Shown one piece after another: positions 10,006 through 27,549 of a DNA stretch of 64,000 nucleotides (positions are counted from its first letter, which is position 1; each line of letters starts with the position of its first letter). This stretch comes from Alistipes sp. (GTDB lineage Bacteria; Bacteroidota; Bacteroidia; Bacteroidales; Rikenellaceae). The stretch is taken from contig JAFTVW010000026.1 in NCBI GenBank assembly GCA_017465605.1, positions 22,446-86,445 on the forward strand. The letters are read 5' to 3'. The notes below the pieces were generated by a model, which was given only the letters and a program-made list of their open reading frames with translations, was not told the DNA's origin and made no database searches. The position numbers were made by a program, and so were the translations under genes.

Positions 10006-11088
10006 CTATTTTTTGCGAGCCTCGCAGTAAGCACAACGATAACCATCGGCAGTCTCGTGGAAGAGTTTATCCACATCTTCCCAATTTGAGATACACATAC
10101 GATTACTGCATCGCCAATCGTTATGCACCAAATCGGTATCCAGACGAGGTGTCTCGCTCTGCGTTGGACGCTCCTTTGCCCATTCGAGCAGAGTGTAAAT
10201 CAATGCCATACGCACAAACTTACCATTCTCAACCTGACGGAAATATGCCGCACGGGGGTCGTTATCCACTGCGCGAGTAATCTCGTTCACGCGTGGCAGT
10301 GGGTGAAGAACAATCATATCCTCCTTAGCGAGTTTCATTCGCTCCGGATTGAGAATAAAGCTATCCTTCAAACGCTCAAACTCCTCCTCGTCCAAGAAAC
10401 GCTCCTTCTGAACTCGGGTCATATAGAGGATATCCAACTCTGGAAGTACCTCCTCCATTGTAGAAACCTCACGCGTTGGAACATTATTCTTATCACAAAC
10501 CTCACGGCGGATATACGATGGCAAGCGCAACTCCTCGGGCGCAATCAGCACCACATTGATACCCTCATAACGCGACAAAGCCTTGATAAGAGAGTGAACC
10601 GTACGTCCAAACTTCAAATCACCGCAGAATCCGATTGTAAGATTATCCAAACGACCCTTCTCACGACGAATTGTCAAAAGGTCGGTCAAGGTCTGAGTAG
10701 GGTGTGCGTGGCTACCATCACCAGCATTGATAATAGGCACGTTAGAGTAGTGTGATGCCACAAAAGGCGCACCCTCCTTGCTATGGCGCATAGCGATAAT
10801 ATCGGCAAAGCAACCAATTACACGCACTGTATCGGCAACGGTCTCGCCCTTACTTACCGAAGAAGATGCCGCATCGGAAAATCCCAACACATTACCTCCC
10901 AACTCCATCATCGCTGATGTAAAGCTCAAACGAGTACGGGTACTCGGCTCGTAGAATAGGGTAGCGAGTTTTTTGCCTTTGCATACCTCGCTATATTTCT
11001 CACGGTTGGCGATGATATCAAGTGCCGTATTGATTATCTGGTCAACTTCCGCGACCGAAATATCGGTTGTATCAATTAGATGTCTCAT
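10006..11088 (-). CDS. pyrB: Aspartate carbamoyltransferase with fused PyrI-like zinc module
   Basis: 360 residues; catalytic chains are usually about 305-310. Residues 1-305 are a complete catalytic chain: STRTR at 49-53 binds carbamoyl phosphate, and HPTQ at 129-132, the RVQKERF loop and HPLPR are present. Residues 323-360 resemble the zinc domain of the regulatory chain PyrI, with Cys327, Cys332, Cys352 and Cys355 spaced C-x4-C-x19-C-x2-C and flanked by PyrI-like residues ([19 protein letters not shown]). PyrI's larger N-terminal nucleotide-binding domain is absent, and no pyrI gene is in the window. It lies between pyrE and purT. Confidence 0.95.
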
Positions 11089-16929: not shown

Positions 16930-17850
16930 CTACTTTACAATACCAATAATATCGCTCAATCGCTCTATACCCAAACGCTCCATCTCCTGAGGCAACTGCT
17001 CGATGATATTCTTACAAGCATAAGGGTCTTTAAGATTGGCAGCACCAACCTGAACGGCAGTAGCACCAGCCATCATCATCTCGATAACATCAGAAGCACT
17101 CTCAACTCCTCCGCAACCCATAACGGGGACAGAGCAAGCATTTGCGACCTGATATACCATACGCACCGCTACGGGAAAAACCGCAGGGCCTGAGAAGCCA
17201 CCCATCTTATTGGCAATGACGGGACGACGACGCATAGTATCGATTCGCATACCAAGCAAGGTGTTAATCAAGCAGATACCATCGGCACCAGCCTCCTCAC
17301 AAGCCTTTGCAATGGCTACAATATCGGTAACATTCGGACTAAGTTTGATAAATACAGGTTTTGTTGTTACGGCCTTTACGGCACGGGTAACCTCAGCAGC
17401 CATTTCTGGTTGAGTACCGAAACTCATACCGCCATTATGTACATTGGGGCAAGAGACATTTACCTCAATAATTGCCACCTGCTCCTGCTTATCAATCTTA
17501 GCACAGCACTCAGCATACTCATCAATCGAGAAACCACTGATATTGGCAACAATAGGCTTGCGGAAAATCTTTCTAAGCTCAGGCAATTCGTGTGCGACCA
17601 CAGCATCAACGCCTGGATTCTGCAAACCAACCGAATTAATCATTCCCGAACGGCACTCGGCAATACGAGGTGTTGGATTACCAAAACGAGCCTCGCGAGT
17701 TGTGCCTTTGATAGATATTGAGCCGAGGATATTTATATCGTAGAACTCATTATGCTCCTTACCAAAGCCAAACGTACCACTGGCAGGAATCACAGGGTTG
17801 TCCAGCTTAACACCGCACAACTCCACAGTTGTATCATAAATCTTCGCCAT
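16930..17850 (-). CDS. pyrD: Dihydroorotate dehydrogenase, class 1B catalytic subunit
   Basis: 306 residues. This FMN enzyme oxidises dihydroorotate to orotate. It shows the N-terminal NPVIPASGTFGFG, NVSCPNVHNGG with the active-site Cys of class 1B, KLSPNVTD and MGCGGVESASD. It lies 3 bases after pyrK, its usual electron-transfer partner, so electrons pass through PyrK to NAD rather than to quinone. It is the last gene of the pyrC-carA-carB-pyrK-pyrD operon. Confidence 0.95.
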   Translation of the reverse strand: MAKIYDTTVELCGVKLDNPVIPASGTFGFGKEHNEFYDINILGSISIKGTTREARFGNPTPRIAECRSGMINSVGLQNPGVDAVVAHELPELRKIFRKPIVANISGFSIDEYAECCAKIDKQEQVAIIEVNVSCPNVHNGGMSFGTQPEMAAEVTRAVKAVTTKPVFIKLSPNVTDIVAIAKACEEAGADGICLINTLLGMRIDTMRRRPVIANKMGGFSGPAVFPVAVRMVYQVANACSVPVMGCGGVESASDVIEMMMAGATAVQVGAANLKDPYACKNIIEQLPQEMERLGIERLSDIIGIVK

Positions 17851-17853
17851 ATC

Positions 17854-18594
17854 TTACCAAATTATTTCGCCTCGTTTCATTACAGGGCCATCTTTACAAA
17901 TACGCTTATTGCCTGCAAGAGTCTTGCAGCTACAACCCATACAAGCTCCAAATCCGCAACCCATTCGCTCCTCAAACGACAACTCACCATCTTGCTCGCA
18001 GCAACCACACAACGCCTTTAACATAGGCAATGGGCCACACGAATAGAAATAGTCGAAATCGATTGCCGCCTCGCGAATTGCATCGGTAACAAAACCCTTT
18101 ACACCCATTGAGCCATCAGCAGTTGAGACATATACATCAGCACCCAACGCCTTAAACTCATCGGCATAGAACACCTCGTCGGCACGATTGAAACCCAGCA
18201 CAACGCTGACTTTGCGACCACGCGCGATAAGTTCTTTTGCCAAACGATACAAAGGTGGCACACCAACACCTCCACCAACAAGCAGAGGCTTTTGGCAATC
18301 GGCATCGGCATCAAAGCCATTACCCAAGCCCGTCAGGACGTCGAGTTTAACCCCGGCGCCCATATGGCTCATAACTTCTGTACCTCGACCGACAACTTTA
18401 TATATAATGGTGATGGTATTGTCGCTCCAATCCGAAATCGAGATAGGACGGCGCAAATAGAAACCTTCCAACTCAATATTTACAAACTGACCTGGACGAG
18501 TAATCCACTGCGAATCACCCTCCAACACCATACGATATACGCCATTGGTCAACGGTTCATTCGATAAAACGCTATATATAGCCTTTTTATACAT
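17854..18594 (-). CDS. pyrK: Dihydroorotate dehydrogenase electron-transfer subunit
   Basis: 246 residues. The N-terminal FAD domain shows RRPISISDW, and a ferredoxin-reductase NAD fold (LLVGGGVGVPPLYRL) follows. The C-terminal four-cysteine site for a [2Fe-2S] cluster is in CGFGACMGCSCKTL plus the later Cys in RICKDGP. It carries electrons from PyrD to NAD+. It is flanked by carB and pyrD with spacings of 2-3 bases. Confidence 0.95.
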   Translation of the reverse strand: MYKKAIYSVLSNEPLTNGVYRMVLEGDSQWITRPGQFVNIELEGFYLRRPISISDWSDNTITIIYKVVGRGTEVMSHMGAGVKLDVLTGLGNGFDADADCQKPLLVGGGVGVPPLYRLAKELIARGRKVSVVLGFNRADEVFYADEFKALGADVYVSTADGSMGVKGFVTDAIREAAIDFDYFYSCGPLPMLKALCGCCEQDGELSFEERMGCGFGACMGCSCKTLAGNKRICKDGPVMKRGEIIW

Positions 18595-18596
18595 AA

Positions 18597-21500
18597 CTAC
18601 TCGGCATCAATTGTTGATACTCCCAATGTAATCTCCTCCAAAACATCGAGCAATACGCTCACAGTCTCCAAAGCGGTGAACAACGTAACATTATTCTCGG
18701 CAGCAGCACGACGGATATCGTAACCATCACGGCGAGTGCTATGCTGATTTACATCGATAGTGTTAATCACATAAGTCACGTGACCCTTACGCAACGAGTC
18801 GTAAATCTCTGTGCAACCTTCGCTGAGCTTACGCAAGTGGCGAGTACGAATACCGTGACTACGCAAGAACTCGCAAGTACCCTTAGTAGCCTCGATATTG
18901 AAGCCCAAATCGTAGAAACGCTTGATAAGTGGCAATGCACGCTCCTTATCGGCATCGGCCAACGTTACGAAGATTGTTCCATAGTTTGCAACAGCCACGC
19001 CCGATGAACGCAACGACTTATACAAAGCACGATTCAAGCTCTTATCGTAACCAATAGCCTCACCTGTTGACTTCATCTCAGGAGAGAGGTAAGAATCTAC
19101 ACCACGAATCTTAGCAAACGAGAAGGCTGGCGACTTAACGAACCAGCGGCTCTTCTCCTTACCATACATCTCTGTAATACCCTGCTCGCGAAGTGAATGG
19201 CCGAGGATAACCATTGTAGCAATCTTTGCCATAGGCACACCCGTAGCCTTCGAGAGGAACGGAACAGTACGCGAAGAACGAGGATTGACCTCGATTACGA
19301 ATACCTTGTCGTTCTCATCTACGATAAACTGTATATTGAACAGACCAACGATACCGATAGCAAGACCCAACTGCTTGGTGTAGGTAAGGATAGTATCCTT
19401 AACCTGCTGGCTTACGCTGAATGTTGGATATACGCTGATACTATCGCCTGAGTGGATACCTGTATGCTCTACGTGCTCCATAATACCTGGCACGAATACA
19501 TCTTTTCCGTCGCAGATGGCATCAACCTCCAACTCCTTACCCTGAATATACTTATCAACCAATACAGGTGACTTCTCGTTAATCTCCACAGCCGAGCGCA
19601 GATAGTGACGCAGAGTCTCCTCGTTACCTACAATCTGCATTGCACGACCACCCAATACAAAACTTGGACGCACCAATACAGGATAACCAATACGAGCTGC
19701 GGCAGCAACACCACGCTCAATATCAGTTACAGCCTCGGCCTCAGGCTGAGGAATACCAACCTCGTTCATAATACGCTCGAAGCACTTTCTATCCTCAGCG
19801 TTATTGATTGCTTGAATACCTGTACCGATGATGTTCACACCCAAATCGGCCAATGGCTCTGCAAGGTTAATGGCAGTCTGACCTCCCAACGACACTACAA
19901 TACCCTCGGGTTTCTCCAACTCTACGACATTCATTACGTCCTCGACAGTAAGAGGCTCGAAGTAGAGTTTATCGCTGATAGTATAGTCAGTTGACACTGT
20001 CTCTGGGTTATTATTTACGATGATGGCCTCATATCCAGCCTCCTTGATAGTCCAGATGGCGTGAACGGTAGAGTAGTCAAACTCAACACCCTGACCGATA
20101 CGAATAGGGCCTGAGCCCAATACCAAAATCTTCTTTCTATCGCTACGCACCGACTCGTTCTCGGCCTCGTAAGTAGAGTAGAAGTAGGGTACATATGTAT
20201 CAATCTCACCTGCGCAAGAGTCAATAATCTTATACACTGGGAATACATTCTCCTTCTTACGCAAGAGGAAAAGCTCAGCCTCGCTCATATTCCACAACTG
20301 GCCAATGAACTTATCGCTGAATCCCATTCGTTTAGCCTCCTTCAAGACCTCGATATTGCCAACATTTGCAGCCACGACTTTCTCCATCTCAACGATATTC
20401 TTGAACTTCTCCAAGAACAACATATCAATCTTGGTGTGGTTATATATGATAAGCAAATCGACACCCTTGCGGATAAGCTGAGCAATTGCATACAAGCGGT
20501 CGTCGGTACCCTTGCGGATATACTCCAACAACTCCTCGGTCTTCCAATCGTCGAACTTCTTGTGATAGATATGGCATACACCTGTCTCCAATGAGCGAAC
20601 AGCCTTCAAGATACCCTCCTCGATGGTACGGCCGATACTCATAACCTCACCCGTAGCCTTCATCTGAGTACCCAACTCATTCGACGCATCACTAAACTTA
20701 TCAAATGGGAAACGGGCAACCTTCAACACTACATAATCCAATGCAGGCTCAAAGCAAGCTGGACGACCCGAAATCATAATCTCGTCCAAAGTAAGGCCAA
20801 TGGCAATCTTAGCAGTTACACGCGCAATGGGGAATCCACTCGCCTTTGATGCCAAAGCCGATGAACGCGACACGCGAGGATTAACCTCGATGATATAGTA
20901 ATTGAACGACAATGGATCCAATGCAAACTGCACGTTACAACCACCCTCAATCTTCAACGCACGAATAATCTTCAATGCACTGCCACGCAAGAGCTGGTAC
21001 TCTTTGTCGGTCAAAGTCTGAGCGGGAGCAATTACCATTGAGTCGCCTGTGTGGATACCCACCGGGTCGATATTCTCCATACTACAAATTGCAATTGCAG
21101 TATCGTTCTTATCGCGCATTACCTCAAACTCAATCTCCTTGTATCCCTTGATACTCTTCTCTACCAATACCTGATGTACGGGCGAAAGGATAAGGGCATT
21201 ACGCATAATCTCGCGCAACTCCTCCTCATTATCAGCAAAACCGCCACCTGTTCCACCCAAAGTAAATGCAGGGCGCAACACTACGGGGTAACCAATCTTC
21301 TCAGCTGCCTTAACACCATCTTCCATCGAGTTCACTACAACCGATGGCAACACTGGCTCACCGATTCTTACGCACAACTCCTTGAAAAGCTCACGGTCCT
21401 CAGCCTCCTCGATACTATTGAACGATGTTCCGAGAATCTCCACATTACACTCGTCCAAAACGCCCTTCTTTGCAAGTTGAACGGCGAGGTTAAGACCTGT

Positions 21501-21779
21501 CTGACCTCCCAAACCCGGAACAATTGCATCGGGACGCTCGTATCGTACAATCTTTGCAACATACTCCAATGTGAGTGGCTCCATATAGACCTTATCGGCA
21601 ATATTGGTGTCGGTCATAATTGTTGCGGGGTTAGAGTTCACAAGAATAACCTCGTAACCCTCCTCCTTCAATGCCAAGCACGCCTGAGTACCTGCATAAT
21701 CGAACTCAGCAGCCTGACCAATGACAATCGGGCCGGAGCCGATTACCATTACTTTCTTTATATCTGTTCTTCTAGGCAT
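18597..21779 (-). CDS. carB: Carbamoyl-phosphate synthase, large subunit
   Basis: 1060 residues, near the usual 1,070. It has two ATP-grasp halves, with GSGPIVIGQAAEFDYAGTQA near residue 12 and GSGPIRIGQGVEFDYS near 555, and an MGS-type allosteric domain over about the last 130 residues. It makes carbamoyl phosphate from bicarbonate, ammonia and 2 ATP; ammonia normally arrives by tunnel from CarA. Its start overlaps the carA stop by 8 bases, so the two are translationally coupled. The large subunit looks intact, unlike the CarA glutaminase site. Confidence 0.97.
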   Translation of the reverse strand: MPRRTDIKKVMVIGSGPIVIGQAAEFDYAGTQACLALKEEGYEVILVNSNPATIMTDTNIADKVYMEPLTLEYVAKIVRYERPDAIVPGLGGQTGLNLAVQLAKKGVLDECNVEILGTSFNSIEEAEDRELFKELCVRIGEPVLPSVVVNSMEDGVKAAEKIGYPVVLRPAFTLGGTGGGFADNEEELREIMRNALILSPVHQVLVEKSIKGYKEIEFEVMRDKNDTAIAICSMENIDPVGIHTGDSMVIAPAQTLTDKEYQLLRGSALKIIRALKIEGGCNVQFALDPLSFNYYIIEVNPRVSRSSALASKASGFPIARVTAKIAIGLTLDEIMISGRPACFEPALDYVVLKVARFPFDKFSDASNELGTQMKATGEVMSIGRTIEEGILKAVRSLETGVCHIYHKKFDDWKTEELLEYIRKGTDDRLYAIAQLIRKGVDLLIIYNHTKIDMLFLEKFKNIVEMEKVVAANVGNIEVLKEAKRMGFSDKFIGQLWNMSEAELFLLRKKENVFPVYKIIDSCAGEIDTYVPYFYSTYEAENESVRSDRKKILVLGSGPIRIGQGVEFDYSTVHAIWTIKEAGYEAIIVNNNPETVSTDYTISDKLYFEPLTVEDVMNVVELEKPEGIVVSLGGQTAINLAEPLADLGVNIIGTGIQAINNAEDRKCFERIMNEVGIPQPEAEAVTDIERGVAAAARIGYPVLVRPSFVLGGRAMQIVGNEETLRHYLRSAVEINEKSPVLVDKYIQGKELEVDAICDGKDVFVPGIMEHVEHTGIHSGDSISVYPTFSVSQQVKDTILTYTKQLGLAIGIVGLFNIQFIVDENDKVFVIEVNPRSSRTVPFLSKATGVPMAKIATMVILGHSLREQGITEMYGKEKSRWFVKSPAFSFAKIRGVDSYLSPEMKSTGEAIGYDKSLNRALYKSLRSSGVAVANYGTIFVTLADADKERALPLIKRFYDLGFNIEATKGTCEFLRSHGIRTRHLRKLSEGCTEIYDSLRKGHVTYVINTIDVNQHSTRRDGYDIRRAAAENNVTLFTALETVSVLLDVLEEITLGVSTIDAE

Positions 21780-22860
21780 TTTGATACTCCTCCATCAGTT
21801 TAATGAATTTATCGAAAAGATATGCGCTATCCTGCGGACCAGGTGCGCTCTCAGGGTGGAACTGAACTGCGTACATCTTATCCTTAACGCACTCAATACC
21901 CTCAATTGTTGAGTCCAATACGTTGACGTGAGTAACCTCCAAACCTGTCGTTTTGAGCGACTCGGCATTTACAACGTAGCTATGATTCTGTGCGGTTAAA
22001 TCAATACGGCCACTCTCCAACGAGCGAACAGCCGAGCCGCCGTGATGACCACACTTCATCTTCTCTACCTTAGCTCCGTATGCCAAAGCGATAAGCTCCA
22101 TACCGAGCGAGATACCGAACACAGGAATCGAACCGCCGATAGACTTAATCAACTCCACAACCTCGAGCACATCGTAAGGATTGCCGGGGCCATTCGAAAT
22201 GAAGATACCATCAGGGTTGAAAGCCTTAATCTCTTCAAGAGTTGTGGTGTAAGGGACAACCGTAACATTACAACCACGAGAATTGAAGTGGCTGATGATA
22301 TTGTGCTTGATACCGCAATCCACAGCTACGATATCGTAGGTGTGATTCGGAGTACGAGAGAACCAACGCTTGCGGCAGCTAACTTTGCTCACCTGATTCT
22401 TGGGAATTGGGGTAGATTTAATCATCTCCAAAGCCTTTTCAAGCGATGTGTCGGCATTAACAATTGCAGCACGCTGAGTACCCTCATCGCGAATAATACG
22501 CACAATCATACGCGTATCCACACCTGCAATGCAAGGAATGCCTTGCTCGTCAAGGGTCTCCGAGAACGTCTTTGTGTAACGGAAGTTACTTGGGTTTTCG
22601 TTGCACTCACGAACTACCATACCTCCGATTGTAGGCAACTTCGACTCAAAATCCTCATCGGTAATACCATAGTTACCAATCAGAGGATAGGCCATAACCA
22701 CAATTTGGTCAATGTTGGAGGGATCGGAAATAATCTCCTGATATCCCACAACCGACGTATTGAAAACAATCTCGCATACACGCTCCACGTCGGCACCATA
22801 ACCGTAACCATAGAACTCGCGACCGTTTTCAAGGACTAATTTCTTTGTAAATGGTTTCAT
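21772..22860 (-). CDS. carA: Carbamoyl-phosphate synthase small subunit with Ser in place of the nucleophile Cys
   Basis: 362 residues. It has the CarA N-terminal domain and a class I glutamine amidotransferase fold. The nucleophile motif, normally GICLGHQ, reads GISLGME: the catalytic Cys is Ser251 (codon at 22110-22108, TCG on the minus strand) and the His-Gln pair after it is Met-Glu. The rest is conserved, including ISNGPGNP, KCGHHGG, TAQNHSYVV and the His335/Glu337 of the triad in FHPESAPGP. It should not hydrolyse glutamine; it may serve as a structural partner for CarB running on free ammonia. It lies 27 bases after pyrC. Confidence 0.95.
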   Translation of the reverse strand: MKPFTKKLVLENGREFYGYGYGADVERVCEIVFNTSVVGYQEIISDPSNIDQIVVMAYPLIGNYGITDEDFESKLPTIGGMVVRECNENPSNFRYTKTFSETLDEQGIPCIAGVDTRMIVRIIRDEGTQRAAIVNADTSLEKALEMIKSTPIPKNQVSKVSCRKRWFSRTPNHTYDIVAVDCGIKHNIISHFNSRGCNVTVVPYTTTLEEIKAFNPDGIFISNGPGNPYDVLEVVELIKSIGGSIPVFGISLGMELIALAYGAKVEKMKCGHHGGSAVRSLESGRIDLTAQNHSYVVNAESLKTTGLEVTHVNVLDSTIEGIECVKDKMYAVQFHPESAPGPQDSAYLFDKFIKLMEEYQNA

Positions 22861-22887: not shown

Positions 22888-24159
22888 TTATTTTTCATAA
22901 ACAATGCGGCCATCGACCATAGTCAAACAGCACTCACCCCAAAGATGCCACCCCTCAAATGGAGTACTGCGACCCATAGAGTGGAATGTTGCAGGGTCAA
23001 CATCATACTCTGAGTTAAGGTCAAATACTGCAATATCGGCAACCTCGCCTTCGGCCAAACCTCCGCCAAGCGAGAATATACGACGTGGAGCCTCAGCCAA
23101 AACATCAATAGCCTTCTCCAACGATATGATTCCCTCACGCACCAGTTTGGTATAAATCACAGCAAACGAAGTCTCCAAGCCTACCACACCCATTGCACTA
23201 AACTCCAAACCGCGCGACTTCTCATCTGCGGTATGAGGTGCGTGGTCGGTGGCTACGACATCGACTGTGCCATCTTTCAAACCCTCCACAAGAGCATCTC
23301 TATCGGCAGCCGAGCGAATAGGGGGATTCATCTTGAAACGACCCTCCTCCTGCAAATCCATATCGCACATTGTAAGGTAGTGAGGGCCTGTCTCGCAAGT
23401 AACCTTCACTCCTCGTGCCTTTGCTTCACGAATCAGCCGAACACTCTCTTTTGTTGAGATGTGACAAACGTGATAACGGCAACCAATCTCCTCGGCAAGC
23501 TTTATATCACGCTCAACTTGCGCCCACTCACTCTCCGAGCAGATGCCACGATGACCATTCTTTGCAGCATACTCTCCATCGTGGATATAACCCTTTCTTA
23601 GCAACTCGTCAACCTCACAATGAGCCGCAATAATTGAATCTGAACGTTTAGCGGCCTCCATAGCCTGACGCATCATATCCTCATTCTGGACACCGCTACC
23701 ATCATCAGAAAATCCAGCCACTTTCTGAGCCATCGCCTCAAAATCCACCAACTCACGACCATAACGAGAACGAGTGATTGTGGCATAGGGCAAAACTTTT
23801 ATCTTGGCATCACGCTCGATGATATCCAACTCCTTTTGCAGATTCTCCACCGAATCGGGAGCAGGGTTAAGATTGGGCATTGCGCATACGGTAGTGAATC
23901 CACCGTGTGCCGCAGCAGCCGTACCTGTGGCAATAGTCTCTTTGGCAGAGAAACCGGGTTCGCGCAAATGAACGTGCAAATCGACCAAACCAGCCGTAAT
24001 AATCTTCGACGAACAATCGATAACTTTATCGCCTTCCGCAGCTTCGATTCGCTCAGCAATACGCTCTATGCGGCCATCTACGACAGCCACATCAGCCACG
24101 CGCGTCGTACCACAGCTAACTATTTTACCACCCTGTAATATAACTCTACCTGTACTCAT
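22888..24159 (-). CDS. pyrC: Dihydroorotase, class I
   Basis: 423 residues. It cyclises carbamoyl aspartate to dihydroorotate. The metal-binding motif is GLVDLHVHLREPGF, followed by FSDDGSGVQN, AHCEV, HVCHISTKES and ATDHAPHT. The ATG at 24159 fits the family; upstream in-frame starts as far as 24267 would run through the leader hairpin and add an unconserved tail. It is the first structural gene of the second pyrimidine operon and starts 11 bases after the T-tract of a leader terminator, so its expression probably depends on attenuation. Confidence 0.95.
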   Translation of the reverse strand: MSTGRVILQGGKIVSCGTTRVADVAVVDGRIERIAERIEAAEGDKVIDCSSKIITAGLVDLHVHLREPGFSAKETIATGTAAAAHGGFTTVCAMPNLNPAPDSVENLQKELDIIERDAKIKVLPYATITRSRYGRELVDFEAMAQKVAGFSDDGSGVQNEDMMRQAMEAAKRSDSIIAAHCEVDELLRKGYIHDGEYAAKNGHRGICSESEWAQVERDIKLAEEIGCRYHVCHISTKESVRLIREAKARGVKVTCETGPHYLTMCDMDLQEEGRFKMNPPIRSAADRDALVEGLKDGTVDVVATDHAPHTADEKSRGLEFSAMGVVGLETSFAVIYTKLVREGIISLEKAIDVLAEAPRRIFSLGGGLAEGEVADIAVFDLNSEYDVDPATFHSMGRSTPFEGWHLWGECCLTMVDGRIVYEK

Positions 24160-24170
24160 ATTCCAATTAC

Positions 24171-24195
24171 AAAAAAGGCGACCAAACAGTCGCCC
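24171..24195 (-). terminator. Leader terminator (attenuator) upstream of pyrC
   Basis: On the minus strand GGCGAC/GTCGCC arms (24189-24194 and 24177-24182) enclose a 6-base loop and are followed by six T residues (24176-24171), giving a textbook intrinsic terminator. It ends 11 bases before the pyrC start and begins 5 bases after the stop of a short leader ORF. It could also terminate read-through from the TonB receptor gene, but its place inside the leader favours attenuation. Confidence 0.8.
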
Positions 24196-24199
24196 TATA

Positions 24200-24325
24200 T
24201 TAACAATAAAAAACAGTAGTACCGAATTGAGAGATGCCGATAGTTCCAGAAGAAAAACAACCCTCACACAAGCACTTGACTTGTGGCTGAGACTCCAACG
24301 GAGATATTTGCTTCTTCGTCATCAT
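24200..24325 (-). CDS. Leader peptide of the pyrC-carAB-pyrKD operon (41 aa)
   Basis: A small ORF of 41 codons plus TAA, starting with ATG ATG about 14 bases downstream of the predicted transcription start. The peptide starts MMTKKQISPLESQ, carries Cys at 18, 20, 23 and 41, and ends TTVFYC. The last codons are U-rich in the RNA (GTT TTT TAT TGT TAA), and the stop lies 5 bases before the terminator stem. By analogy with the E. coli pyrBI leader, UTP-dependent pausing of RNA polymerase in the U-rich tract could let the ribosome catch up and block the hairpin. Expression is not proven. Confidence 0.6.
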   Translation of the reverse strand: MMTKKQISPLESQPQVKCLCEGCFSSGTIGISQFGTTVFYC

Positions 24326-24345
24326 ACCAATCGTTTTATTTTGTG

Positions 24346-24353
24346 CAAATATA
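24346..24353 (-). promoter_or_regulatory. -7 box of the pyrC operon promoter
   Basis: TATATTTG on the minus strand, an exact Bacteroidota -7 box. Transcription should start near 24339, placing the leader ORF and the hairpin in the transcript. No good -33 TTTG is seen. Confidence 0.6.
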
Positions 24354-24417: not shown

Positions 24418-27400
24418 TTAAAAGACGATGCGAGCCCCAAATTGCATATGCCAACGCGATGCCAAATCGTCAAATGAAAGTTCTCCACTCGTAAATTTAT
24501 ACACCGGAGCACCATTCTCCATACTCACCACATTGACGGGTTGCATTCTCCACCCCGACAAGTTATAATAACTGCCCCAATGGCGGCACAAAAGATTTCC
24601 GAAATTCATCACATCGACCGATAACTCTATCTTACGACGACTTTCGCGGCCAAAATAGAAACCGTGAGCCAAGTGTAAATCAATGCGGTGTTCAGCGGGA
24701 GCCTGCATTGCATTACGCTCGGCAAAGCTACCTCGATTAGAGCGCAGATATGAATCGGCATTGATATAATCGTTCCAACGTGCAGCCGACTCTGCATCAG
24801 CAAACTGCATCACCGAGAGTTCTTGCTCGGTCGGGATATACATAAGCGTTGAGCCAAATACTCCATCGCCATTAAAATCCACACTCTCACCAAATGTCAC
24901 CGAATAACGCTGACCCGAGGTCATCTGATAGACCAAACCTGCCGTCACATCAAACAACTGCGAATATCGTTTATGGAAAGTAGCAGCAAGAGATACTTTG
25001 TGAGGAATATCGTATGTCGAAAGAGATAATTCAGGATTATTCAAATCGAGATTATAATTTCTATTCCAATTCGACGAAGATGATGTTGATGGCACATCAC
25101 ATACCGAGTATGAGTGGCCAAATGTATATGACGCTGCAAGCGACAATCCGAAATCAAACTCTTTTGACACACTACCCGACAATGAGTAAGAATAACCACG
25201 AGAGGTGTTCTCCATATAGTAAATGGCCGAATAATCCGAGACAATCTTATTATACTTCGGCAATGCGCCTCCCTTCACGCCACCGTCTGATGATACAGCA
25301 TAGACCATATCGCCACTCTGCTCAACAGCCACATTGCGGAACACAACATTATTGATAGCTTTGGTATAGAGAGCCTCCACTCTGGCCGACCAGCCATTAA
25401 AACTCTTATATCCGACAGCCGCATTTGCCTTGAAATTCTGCGGATAGCGAAATTTAGAGTCCATAGCATTAAGCATAAAACTTGTATTGGATATGGTTGT
25501 GGGCGACGGTGTTACGCTAAAATCGGCTGCCGACTCAACCACCTTTCCACCTTCGGTTTTACCCATCAATCGCAGACCTTTCTGCTCAACACCCGTATTT
25601 GAGTAGTTGTTCACCACCCACACAAACGGCACCTGACCAGTAAATATTCCTCCTCCGACTTCGGCCGACAAAACACCCTCATCATAGTAACGACGCCAGC
25701 TAAGGCCCACGCGAGGTGAGAACAAAATTTGCGATTGAGGGACATCGCCAATACGAATACCATATCGCTTAGCAATATCGCCACCATTAAACTCTTCATT
25801 TGGGGTAGGTGTGTTGAAAATAAGCGGGAGGGTAGCCCTCAAACCATACACCAAACGGAATCCGCGCCCCACGTCCCAATCATCTTGTGCATAGATATTT
25901 AGCTCGGCAGCCTTGAAACGAGGCCCCCATACGGTACTTCCCGTAACCGAAGGATCTGTGTAGTTGTACTCATACATAGCGGCTTTATCCTGCTCAAAAT
26001 CAGCAATTGAGTTGTAGGTATATGTACCATAGGAATTAGCCAAATAGCGATTGTGGATATTATACAATTCGTGATGCATTCCGAATGTAAACGAATGTGC
26101 GCCACGCTCAAAGATAAGGTTATCGGTCAATGTCAACACATTCTGAGTAAGCGAATTAACACCAGCATAGCGATTATTACCGATATTCACCGTAACACCT
26201 TCCGTTGAGCCTGTATTCTTGATTATCACGCTTGGCATAGCACCCTCTACATCGGGTTTACGGCCATCACCCACGCGAGAGAAACCCACACTCAACGTAT
26301 TGTGTAATCTATCTCCCAACTGCGACTCCAACGAAATAGCCAAATGATGAGCCGTACTATAATTTGCATAACCCGAACCTACGAATGTAAACGACGATAG
26401 GGTATTAGCATACTCTTCGGCTCGTGCATCAAGATAACTATAACTTGCCGACAATCTATTTCGTGAATTGATACGCCAATCAATATTGGCCAACAAAGAG
26501 CCTGAACGCTGCTTCACATCACGACGGCCCACGCCACCTCCATCATATCCCGTAAGCGACTCATATCGAGATGAGATACGTTGCAACTCATCTTCCAGCA
26601 ACACCGCCCCATCAAAACCCCAATAGTGTGATGACGGAGAGCTTTTTTCGTTATACTCGCCACTCACAAAGAAAAACACCTTATCCTTCACAATCGGTCC
26701 CCCGAAAGTTACGCCGTAAATTTGATTGGTCTGTTGTTGGAGTTTCTCCCTATTTGCGACATTTTGCCCAGGAGTTGTTCCATATAAATCTTGATTATTG
26801 AAATAGCTATATGCACTTCCTGCGAATTCGTTTGTTCCCGACTTTGTAACAGCATTAATCATACCGCCACTAAAACCGCTCATACGCACATCATACGACG
26901 CCACAGCCACCTCAATCTGAGCGATAGCATCTAACGACACTGGATTGGCATTCGACAAACCACCATTTGTTCCCGACGACGACAAACCATACATATCATT
27001 ATTAGCTATTCCATTGACCATAAACGAGTTGTAGCGATTAGCCACACCGCCATATGACATTCCTCCGCCTTTTGTAGCATTAGCCTGCGGGGTCAATCGC
27101 ACCACATCGTACAGTGAGCGCGATACCGACGGCAGGGACTCAATGACCTCGCGCGAATAGTTCTCCACTACGCCAGCACTCTTCACATTATCAGCCTCGA
27201 CAACAACCGCACCCACCGATGCCAGATTCTCGCGCATAACAACATCTATACTTCTTGATTCGCCCACTCGCAAAGTCAAATCAGAGATACAATAATTATC
27301 GTATCCAAGATACGACACCTCTAATTTATAACCATCGTCGGGCTTTATGCCGTGAATAGCAAAACGCCCATCGCGATCAACCACAGAGTAGTAGGCAACA

Positions 27401-27549
27401 CCTGTCTTGGATTGGGTTAAAGATACGGTCGCTCCGACCAATGCCTCTTTCGAGAGGTTCTGCACCACACCTCGAAGCGATGCGGTTGTGATTTGAGCCA
27501 TCACATCAAGGCTCAACAATGTCAATAATAGACAAATCAGTTTCTTCAT
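24418..27549 (-). CDS. Oar-like TonB-dependent outer membrane receptor
   Basis: 1043 residues. A signal peptide (MKKLICLLLTLLSLDVMAQ) is followed by a carboxypeptidase-regulatory-like beta-sandwich at about 22-110 (LRGVVQNLSKEALVGATVSL). A plug domain lies at about 115-230 (EVIESLPSVSRSLYDVVRLTPQ) and a long beta-barrel ends in a terminal Phe. It resembles the Oar-type receptors of Bacteroidota rather than SusC, and no SusD gene is adjacent. The ligand is unknown. It has its own promoter at 27689-27696; no clear terminator lies between it and the pyr leader. Confidence 0.88.
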   Translation of the reverse strand: MKKLICLLLTLLSLDVMAQITTASLRGVVQNLSKEALVGATVSLTQSKTGVAYYSVVDRDGRFAIHGIKPDDGYKLEVSYLGYDNYCISDLTLRVGESRSIDVVMRENLASVGAVVVEADNVKSAGVVENYSREVIESLPSVSRSLYDVVRLTPQANATKGGGMSYGGVANRYNSFMVNGIANNDMYGLSSSGTNGGLSNANPVSLDAIAQIEVAVASYDVRMSGFSGGMINAVTKSGTNEFAGSAYSYFNNQDLYGTTPGQNVANREKLQQQTNQIYGVTFGGPIVKDKVFFFVSGEYNEKSSPSSHYWGFDGAVLLEDELQRISSRYESLTGYDGGGVGRRDVKQRSGSLLANIDWRINSRNRLSASYSYLDARAEEYANTLSSFTFVGSGYANYSTAHHLAISLESQLGDRLHNTLSVGFSRVGDGRKPDVEGAMPSVIIKNTGSTEGVTVNIGNNRYAGVNSLTQNVLTLTDNLIFERGAHSFTFGMHHELYNIHNRYLANSYGTYTYNSIADFEQDKAAMYEYNYTDPSVTGSTVWGPRFKAAELNIYAQDDWDVGRGFRLVYGLRATLPLIFNTPTPNEEFNGGDIAKRYGIRIGDVPQSQILFSPRVGLSWRRYYDEGVLSAEVGGGIFTGQVPFVWVVNNYSNTGVEQKGLRLMGKTEGGKVVESAADFSVTPSPTTISNTSFMLNAMDSKFRYPQNFKANAAVGYKSFNGWSARVEALYTKAINNVVFRNVAVEQSGDMVYAVSSDGGVKGGALPKYNKIVSDYSAIYYMENTSRGYSYSLSGSVSKEFDFGLSLAASYTFGHSYSVCDVPSTSSSSNWNRNYNLDLNNPELSLSTYDIPHKVSLAATFHKRYSQLFDVTAGLVYQMTSGQRYSVTFGESVDFNGDGVFGSTLMYIPTEQELSVMQFADAESAARWNDYINADSYLRSNRGSFAERNAMQAPAEHRIDLHLAHGFYFGRESRRKIELSVDVMNFGNLLCRHWGSYYNLSGWRMQPVNVVSMENGAPVYKFTSGELSFDDLASRWHMQFGARIVF

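Follow-up and report, generated by a model that had tools for sequence, protein, structure and literature searches.

A probable UTP-sensitive leader attenuator upstream of the pyrC-carAB-pyrKD operon in Alistipes

What governs the entry of RNA polymerase into the pyrC-carAB-pyrKD operon of Alistipes? In the window (the whole 64,000-nucleotide stretch of Alistipes sp. DNA that was analysed), the space upstream of pyrC holds a promoter box, a short open reading frame (ORF), a U-rich tract and a hairpin. An earlier note on this DNA had read the arrangement as control of the operon parallel to that of pyrBI in Escherichia coli. To our knowledge, UTP-coupled leader attenuators come from enterobacteria and their kin. 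Our comparison of related loci supports the reading of the earlier note, with a predicted response to UTP, and we put the probability that pyrC-carAB-pyrKD is preceded by a transcription attenuator like that of pyrBI, sensitive to UTP and coupled to translation, at roughly 0.77.

Layout of the pyrC leader

On the minus strand, the elements follow one another as box, leader ORF, U tract, hairpin, T6 and pyrC (Table 1). This order, as given in the earlier note, was borne out by direct reading; the spacing of 5 bases between leader stop and stem was not: the gap to the GGGCGAC stem is 4 bases, or 3 when the outer A-T pair is included. Eleven bases separate T6 from the pyrC ATG, and the leader stop is 40 nt upstream of the pyrC start. 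The upstream neighbour is an ORF of 1043 aa (24418-27549), TonB-receptor-like by eye.

In flavobacterial work, TAnnTTTG is placed at -12 to -5 (PMC9723704), so transcription would be expected to start near 24341, ~16 nt before the leader ATG. A start between the hairpin and pyrC would be hard to fit, as the 11 nt leave scant room. The window leader folds well (z -1.97), and a search of the whole window against Rfam gave no match. Consensus terminators were as frequent in the surrounding 5-kb stretch as in shuffles (4 seen versus 4.7 expected), so that it is the conserved array that counts and not the frequency of terminators.

Table 1. Features of the pyrC leader and operon in the window.
Feature	Position	Strand	Description	Basis
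-7 promoter box	24346..24353	-	TATATTTG; consensus TAnnTTTG, Bacteroidota type	read from sequence
Leader ORF	24200..24325	-	41 codons plus TAA, opens with ATGATG at 24325; peptide MMTKKQISPLESQPQVKCLCEGCFSSGTIGISQFGTTVFYC	sequence
Leader stop	24202-24200	-	TAA	sequence
Mid-leader U-rich tract	24247..24262	-	GGTTGTTTTTCTTCTG; possible first pause site	weak
Distal U-rich tract	24203..24217	-	ACTGTTTTTTATTGT; last leader codons, proposed UTP-sensitive pause	sequence and comparison
Terminator hairpin	24175..24196	-	AGGGCGACTGTTTGGTCGCCTT; 9 pairs, GGGCGAC stem, -12.8 kcal/mol	fold and covariation in relatives
Terminator U tract	24171..24176	-	T6; first two bases pair within outer hairpin	sequence
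pyrC	22888..24159	-	dihydroorotase; ATG at 24159, first gene behind the putative attenuator	NCBIfam match
carA	21772..22860	-		NCBIfam match
carB	18597..21779	-		NCBIfam match
pyrK	17854..18594	-	dihydroorotate dehydrogenase electron-transfer subunit	best NCBIfam match, below curated cut-off
pyrD	16930..17850	-	dihydroorotate dehydrogenase	NCBIfam match

Conservation of the array, its frame and its U tract

A pyrC match was found in 175 of 180 genomes of the genus, and 150 of the 175 upstream regions were taken and oriented. By a first rule, the first ATG after a TAnnTTTG box had to open an ORF ending within -16 to +15 of the terminator stem; 119 of the 150 regions satisfied it, although the rule was not fully blind because the terminator had been picked earlier, with preference for one near the end of an ATG ORF. 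Under a wider rule, the ORF could open with any ATG or GTG up to 50 nt from the box, had to have at least 20 codons and was tried against up to 8 candidate hairpins. This rule was satisfied by 138 of the 150 regions, in which a TAnnTTTG box is followed at a distance of 6-42 nt by an ORF of 26-49 codons with a terminator at its end. The leader ORF and hairpin, which the earlier note had expected to be kept in relatives, are therefore present in most of them, and its counter-case, a lack of conservation, did not materialize.

In these 138 loci, selected by the rule, the leader stops lie between 9 nt before the stem and 15 nt inside it, and the median distance from leader stop to pyrC start is ~36 nt. 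In nine further loci (L013, L053, L134, L135, L157, L174, L176, L178 and L192), inspection showed an ORF that crosses the hairpin to end no more than ~15 nt from the pyrC start; the least convincing of these loci is L192, with a read-through ORF of 78 codons. Both the stop-at-stem layout and the read-through layout of E. coli pyrL thus occur within one genus. The scan found no leader at L012 and L141 (2 of 149 assessable regions of the genus), and the upstream region of L223 ends at a contig edge and was not assessable.

The array extends to Bacteroidota-labelled loci with the same kind of pyrC outside the genus set: it is present at L056, L059, L067, L093, L094, L102 and L113, in read-through form at L057 and, by eye, at the sister-genus loci L262-L264. 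The leader of L087 has 8 codons only, and none was seen on inspection at L061, L091, L095 and L096. A metagenome-assembled genome labelled Muribaculum (L058) has a 17-codon leader that ends at a terminator before pyrC and is without a U tract. Model R1 matched once per genome in 44 of 101 genomes of the genus, never more than once, and its matches lie 3-46 nt before the pyrC match in 43 of 43 comparable cases; its misses are probably due to its having been trained on 36 members drawn from just two subgroups.

For statistics on frame, codon usage, changes by codon position, antiterminator pairing, composition, flanks and the mid-leader tract, the leader side comprised only loci passing the wider rule, and 94 representatives of the 138 were chosen at less than 75% ungapped identity. 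Among dinucleotide-shuffled leaders that retained the start, 22% had an ORF ending in the same zone. Frame 0, for which the loci were selected, runs open as far as the hairpin in all 138, compared with 7 for frame +1 and 39 for frame +2.

The peptide itself showed few marks of constraint. In 20 independent close pairs, changes in the leader body were spread over codon positions 1, 2 and 3 as 79, 85 and 104 (p 0.15 versus equality), whereas the start of pyrC had 96, 81 and 248, a distribution different from that of the leader (p 2e-6). The synonymous share in the leader was 0.31 versus 0.23 expected without selection. Selection on the leader peptide thus appears to be little or none, the synonymous excess leaving room for a weak effect, and with so slight a constraint it is the translating of the leader that seems to matter and not its product.

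Cys stands at 4.4% versus 3.4% in shuffles and is absent from 18 of the 94 representatives; Arg stands at 6.8% versus 9.4% and is absent from 11; Arg-Arg is present in 23. With both residues close to or below the shuffled level, a signal carried by Cys or Arg is hard to accommodate, and no run of control codons of the trp type was found in the 94 representative leaders. The four cysteines of the window leader, which had been proposed to be either incidental or a second signal, would therefore seem to be incidental and near base composition.

Directly before the stem, T reaches 0.52-0.58 and C drops to 0.04-0.12 over the last 20 nt, versus T 0.25 at -70..-61. Of the 94 representatives, 91 have a 10-nt window before the stem with 6 or more T, and 3 have none. 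A synonymous-site bias had been predicted and was found: in the last leader codons, T is favoured at NNY third positions (411 of 477, 86%, near the stem; 826 of 1411, 59%, earlier in the leader; 677 of 1566 in the pyrC start; 94 representatives). As a control, we took 15 gene-end terminators behind mechanically found ORFs of at least 100 aa, from the window and three loci; their flanks had T 0.26 and A 0.43, compared with T 0.56 and A 0.22 for the leader flank. A bidirectional terminator was rejected as the source of the T-rich flank, since it would give A upstream and not T, as in the gene-end control. U-richness could still have another purpose, for example that of keeping the RNA unstructured.

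Among the 48 loci whose hairpin is GGGTAAC-like, 30 have leaders that finish in one frame and 18 in another, and the two sets are alike in T content (10.8 and 9.9 of 20). One and the same tract, TTGTTTTATTA, occurs in both sets, read in the first frame at 11 loci and in the second at 4. By sequence comparison, this is a natural frame shift that alters the peptide yet retains the U tract and a stop near the hairpin, the latter required by the rule. The mid-leader tract is less telling. Of the 25 members of the subgroup to which the window belongs, 23 have a tract like TTGTTTTTC in a fixed position, -64..-71 relative to the stem and 60-74 nt downstream of the start codon; E. coli pyrL has a similar one, CGTTTTTCTTCC, at +58. 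In T content, the mid-leader stretch was not above shuffles (36 observed versus 40.5 expected of 94), so the case for a first pause site is weak.

In 36 of 36 sequences, representatives of two subgroups, all 7 core pairs of the terminator form, and the covariation predicted in the earlier note is present in these relatives: 16 cells are changed on both sides of the stem, a number that none of 500 shuffles attained. Of five measures of covariation, two were not above shuffles: the count of pairs with such double changes (2) and that of further pair types (6). All 94 of the minimum-energy folds retained the terminator, at a mean of -14.4 kcal/mol. Pairing of the upstream leader with the 5' arm of the terminator, as expected of an antiterminator, was at the level of shuffles (mean z 0.07; 4% of representatives below -2). 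Leader bodies had somewhat more structure than their shuffled versions (z -1.14 on average, with 17% below -2), and no common pause hairpin was found in them. Alifold on four subgroups gave the terminator as the sole conserved structure in three; in the fourth, subgroup C (13 rows), a further hairpin appeared beside it.

Proposed mechanism and competing explanations

Comparison of the loci shows an open frame that ends at or beyond the hairpin, a U tract, a terminator, no detectable antiterminator and little if any selection on the peptide; with the promoter before a short leader ORF and the lack of a codon signal, this is the set of features expected of a pyrBI-type attenuator. We infer where transcription starts, that polymerase pauses, that UTP is what is sensed and that the ribosome occludes the hairpin. 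RNA polymerase would start near 24341, transcribe the 41-codon leader and arrive at the U-rich last codons. At low UTP, it would slow or pause in the U tract, allowing the lead ribosome to catch up as far as the stop codon, next to or within the 5' arm, and to cover that arm; the terminator could then not fold and polymerase would enter pyrC-carAB-pyrKD. At high UTP, polymerase would outpace the ribosome, the hairpin would fold and transcription would terminate. The leader peptide would have no role in itself, only the act of translation counting.

The E. coli pyrE attenuator, which lies behind orfE/rph, is likewise translation-coupled and depends on UTP for that coupling. It shares this principle with the mechanism proposed here, using a full-size upstream gene instead of a dedicated short leader. 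E. coli pyrBI (PyrL, NC_000913.3 4472399-4472533) is closer in layout: a short leader (44 codons in PyrL), U-rich tracts within the ORF and a strong terminator before the first pyr gene are common to both. The pyrL frame crosses the terminator to end 3 nt short of pyrB, a layout shared by the nine read-through relatives. In the window and most relatives, the frame closes at the 5' arm, with the U tract touching the stem; the 20 nt before the E. coli stem are not U-rich (T 0.25). The genes differ as well (pyrC-carAB-pyrKD instead of pyrBI), as does the promoter, which is of the Bacteroidota type, and the comparison of the two systems was one of layout. The leader attenuators of trp and his share the short translated leader and the terminator but rely on control codons and an antiterminator, neither of which was found at the pyrC leaders.

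The stop-at-stem layout is consistent with what is reported for terminators near stop codons in E. coli, where a terminator 5 bp after the stop codon ends <10% of transcripts versus ~90% at 28 bp, activity being maximal beyond ~27 nt (PMC4824070). There, pyrL is the standing example of ribosome-controlled termination (PMC5021804). For Bacteroidota, leader-like short ORFs are described in Bacteroides thetaiotaomicron (PMC7366714), and "strong clues" of leader attenuation of amino-acid operons in Flavobacterium psychrophilum (PMC9723704). The mechanism class is thus known from pyrBI, whereas the literature searched, which covered few subscription papers, yielded no account of a comparable pyr leader, with the stop-at-stem layout, from Bacteroidota and no demonstration of ribosome-polymerase coupling in the phylum.

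Several other explanations were weighed. A translation-coupled attenuator might sense the general speed of translation or the efficiency of its start instead of UTP, with the U tract serving as unstructured RNA or as a spacer. The same ribosome-occlusion anatomy would be expected of such a device, and a U tract does disfavour pairing; we nevertheless find it unlikely, as U and not A is enriched before the stem (T 0.58, A 0.27, C 0.04 over the last 10 nt), T is preferred even at synonymous sites and the 15 other terminator flanks are A-rich instead. That the operon yields precursors of UMP also makes UTP the natural signal. Far less probable is classical amino-acid attenuation, in which a ribosome stalled at control codons for Arg or Cys would let an antiterminator form. 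Arginine was considered because carAB also serves arginine, and the Arg-Arg pairs and the four Cys codons of the window leader could be cited in its favour, but neither residue departs from shuffled expectation as control codons would, leaders lacking one or the other are found, and the folds contain no antiterminator pairing, the terminator standing alone in three of four subgroups.

The leader could also encode a conserved small protein, such as a Cys-rich metal binder, that by chance precedes a terminator. A CxCxxC-like spacing in the window peptide and the slight synonymous excess would agree with this, yet a peptide under little or no constraint, whose frame is even switched within a subgroup, makes us give the idea almost no weight. 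Since the hairpin sits between the 1043-aa ORF and pyrC, it could be the ordinary terminator of that upstream gene, with a chance ORF beside it and another promoter for pyrC; against this very improbable arrangement stand the promoter box between the upstream gene and the hairpin, the gap of only 11 nt from T6 to the ATG and the retention of the whole array in 138 of 150 regions of the genus. Leader translation might finally act through re-initiation or translational coupling to pyrC, with the terminator secondary. Leader genes 11-14 bp upstream are described as common in Bacteroidetes (PMC4833913), and the leader stop lies beside the pyrC start in the nine read-through relatives; in the window, however, the stop is 40 nt away with the hairpin in between, and the median over the 138 relatives is ~36 nt, so that we hold re-initiation to be scarcely credible as the main mode. 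The UTP-sensitive attenuator remains our preferred reading.

Origin of the operon and the second pyr cluster

The operon itself appears to have relatives in another phylum. Among the best 80 of 594 contig matches, Bacillota-labelled pyrC is 53-62% identical to window pyrC, compared with ~27-33% for pyrC of other Bacteroidales families, and within the order, a search of 393 genomes at E 1e-130 gave pyrC of the window type in only 4, all of the same family. In a tree of 90 proteins, with the taxon labels of the submitters, an arbitrary root and the ordinary Bacteroidales pyrC left out, the Bacteroidota rows cluster together with support 91, next to Bacillota. By these comparisons, the nearest relatives of the operon outside Bacteroidota are those of Bacillota, some of them with PyrR sites. 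Five genomes of the genus (G017, G095, G108, G110 and G185) have a weak best pyrC match (E about 1e-42 to 1e-48; 32% identity in G017); their pyrC resembles that of other Bacteroidales families, and the operon may have been lost, replaced or missed in the assembly.

The PyrR RNA attenuator of Bacillota (Rfam RF00515) is a protein-binding RNA that precedes related pyrC genes there; it shares with the present leader the related operon genes and a terminator before them. A PyrR-like site was found within 600 nt upstream in 9 of the 80 loci (best 80 of 594), all labelled Bacillota, and in none of the 150 regions of the genus. Rfam confirmed the PyrR element at one locus, L101, among 11 loci scanned whole, while Infernal with stricter filters found RF00515 in none of 180 genomes of the genus; the Rfam search of the window gave none either. 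The PyrR protein was equally absent above the NF003549 cut-off in 41 genomes, compared with 6 of 14 control genomes that passed; weak matches only (~19-30 bits versus a cut-off of 138) occurred in 33 of the 41.

The simplest reading of these distributions is a transfer from Bacillota to Bacteroidota with loss of PyrR control, the direction being the one that the comparison suggests. That one gene may come under different sensors is a familiar theme (PMC2965389). We lean slightly towards a fuller scenario in which, after inter-phylum transfer of a clostridial pyrC operon, Bacteroidota exchanged the PyrR switch for a UTP-sensing leader attenuator that arose independently of E. coli pyrBI, which would imply tight coupling of transcription and translation in Bacteroidota. 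If true, this would be a clear case of regulator swapping between phyla, a protein-RNA switch in Bacillota versus a race of polymerase and ribosome in Bacteroidota. The leader would also provide a natural read-out of ribosome-polymerase coupling in gut Bacteroidota and a ready pyrimidine-sensing part for gut commensals, and the comparative set, with its scarcely constrained peptides, two stop placements and two frames over one U tract, would amount to a natural mutagenesis series.

The window contains a second pyrimidine operon, pyrF-pyrE-pyrB (12467-10006, minus strand). By eye, no leader ORF or attenuator precedes pyrF in the window, so this type of control seems limited to the pyrC operon. 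PyrB (10006-11088, minus strand) carries a C-terminal extension of ~55 codons with four cysteines (CSNRMC...CAYC), which we take to be reminiscent of a zinc domain as in PyrI; PyrB open frames are mostly 357-400 aa in the genus versus mostly 300-340 aa in other families.
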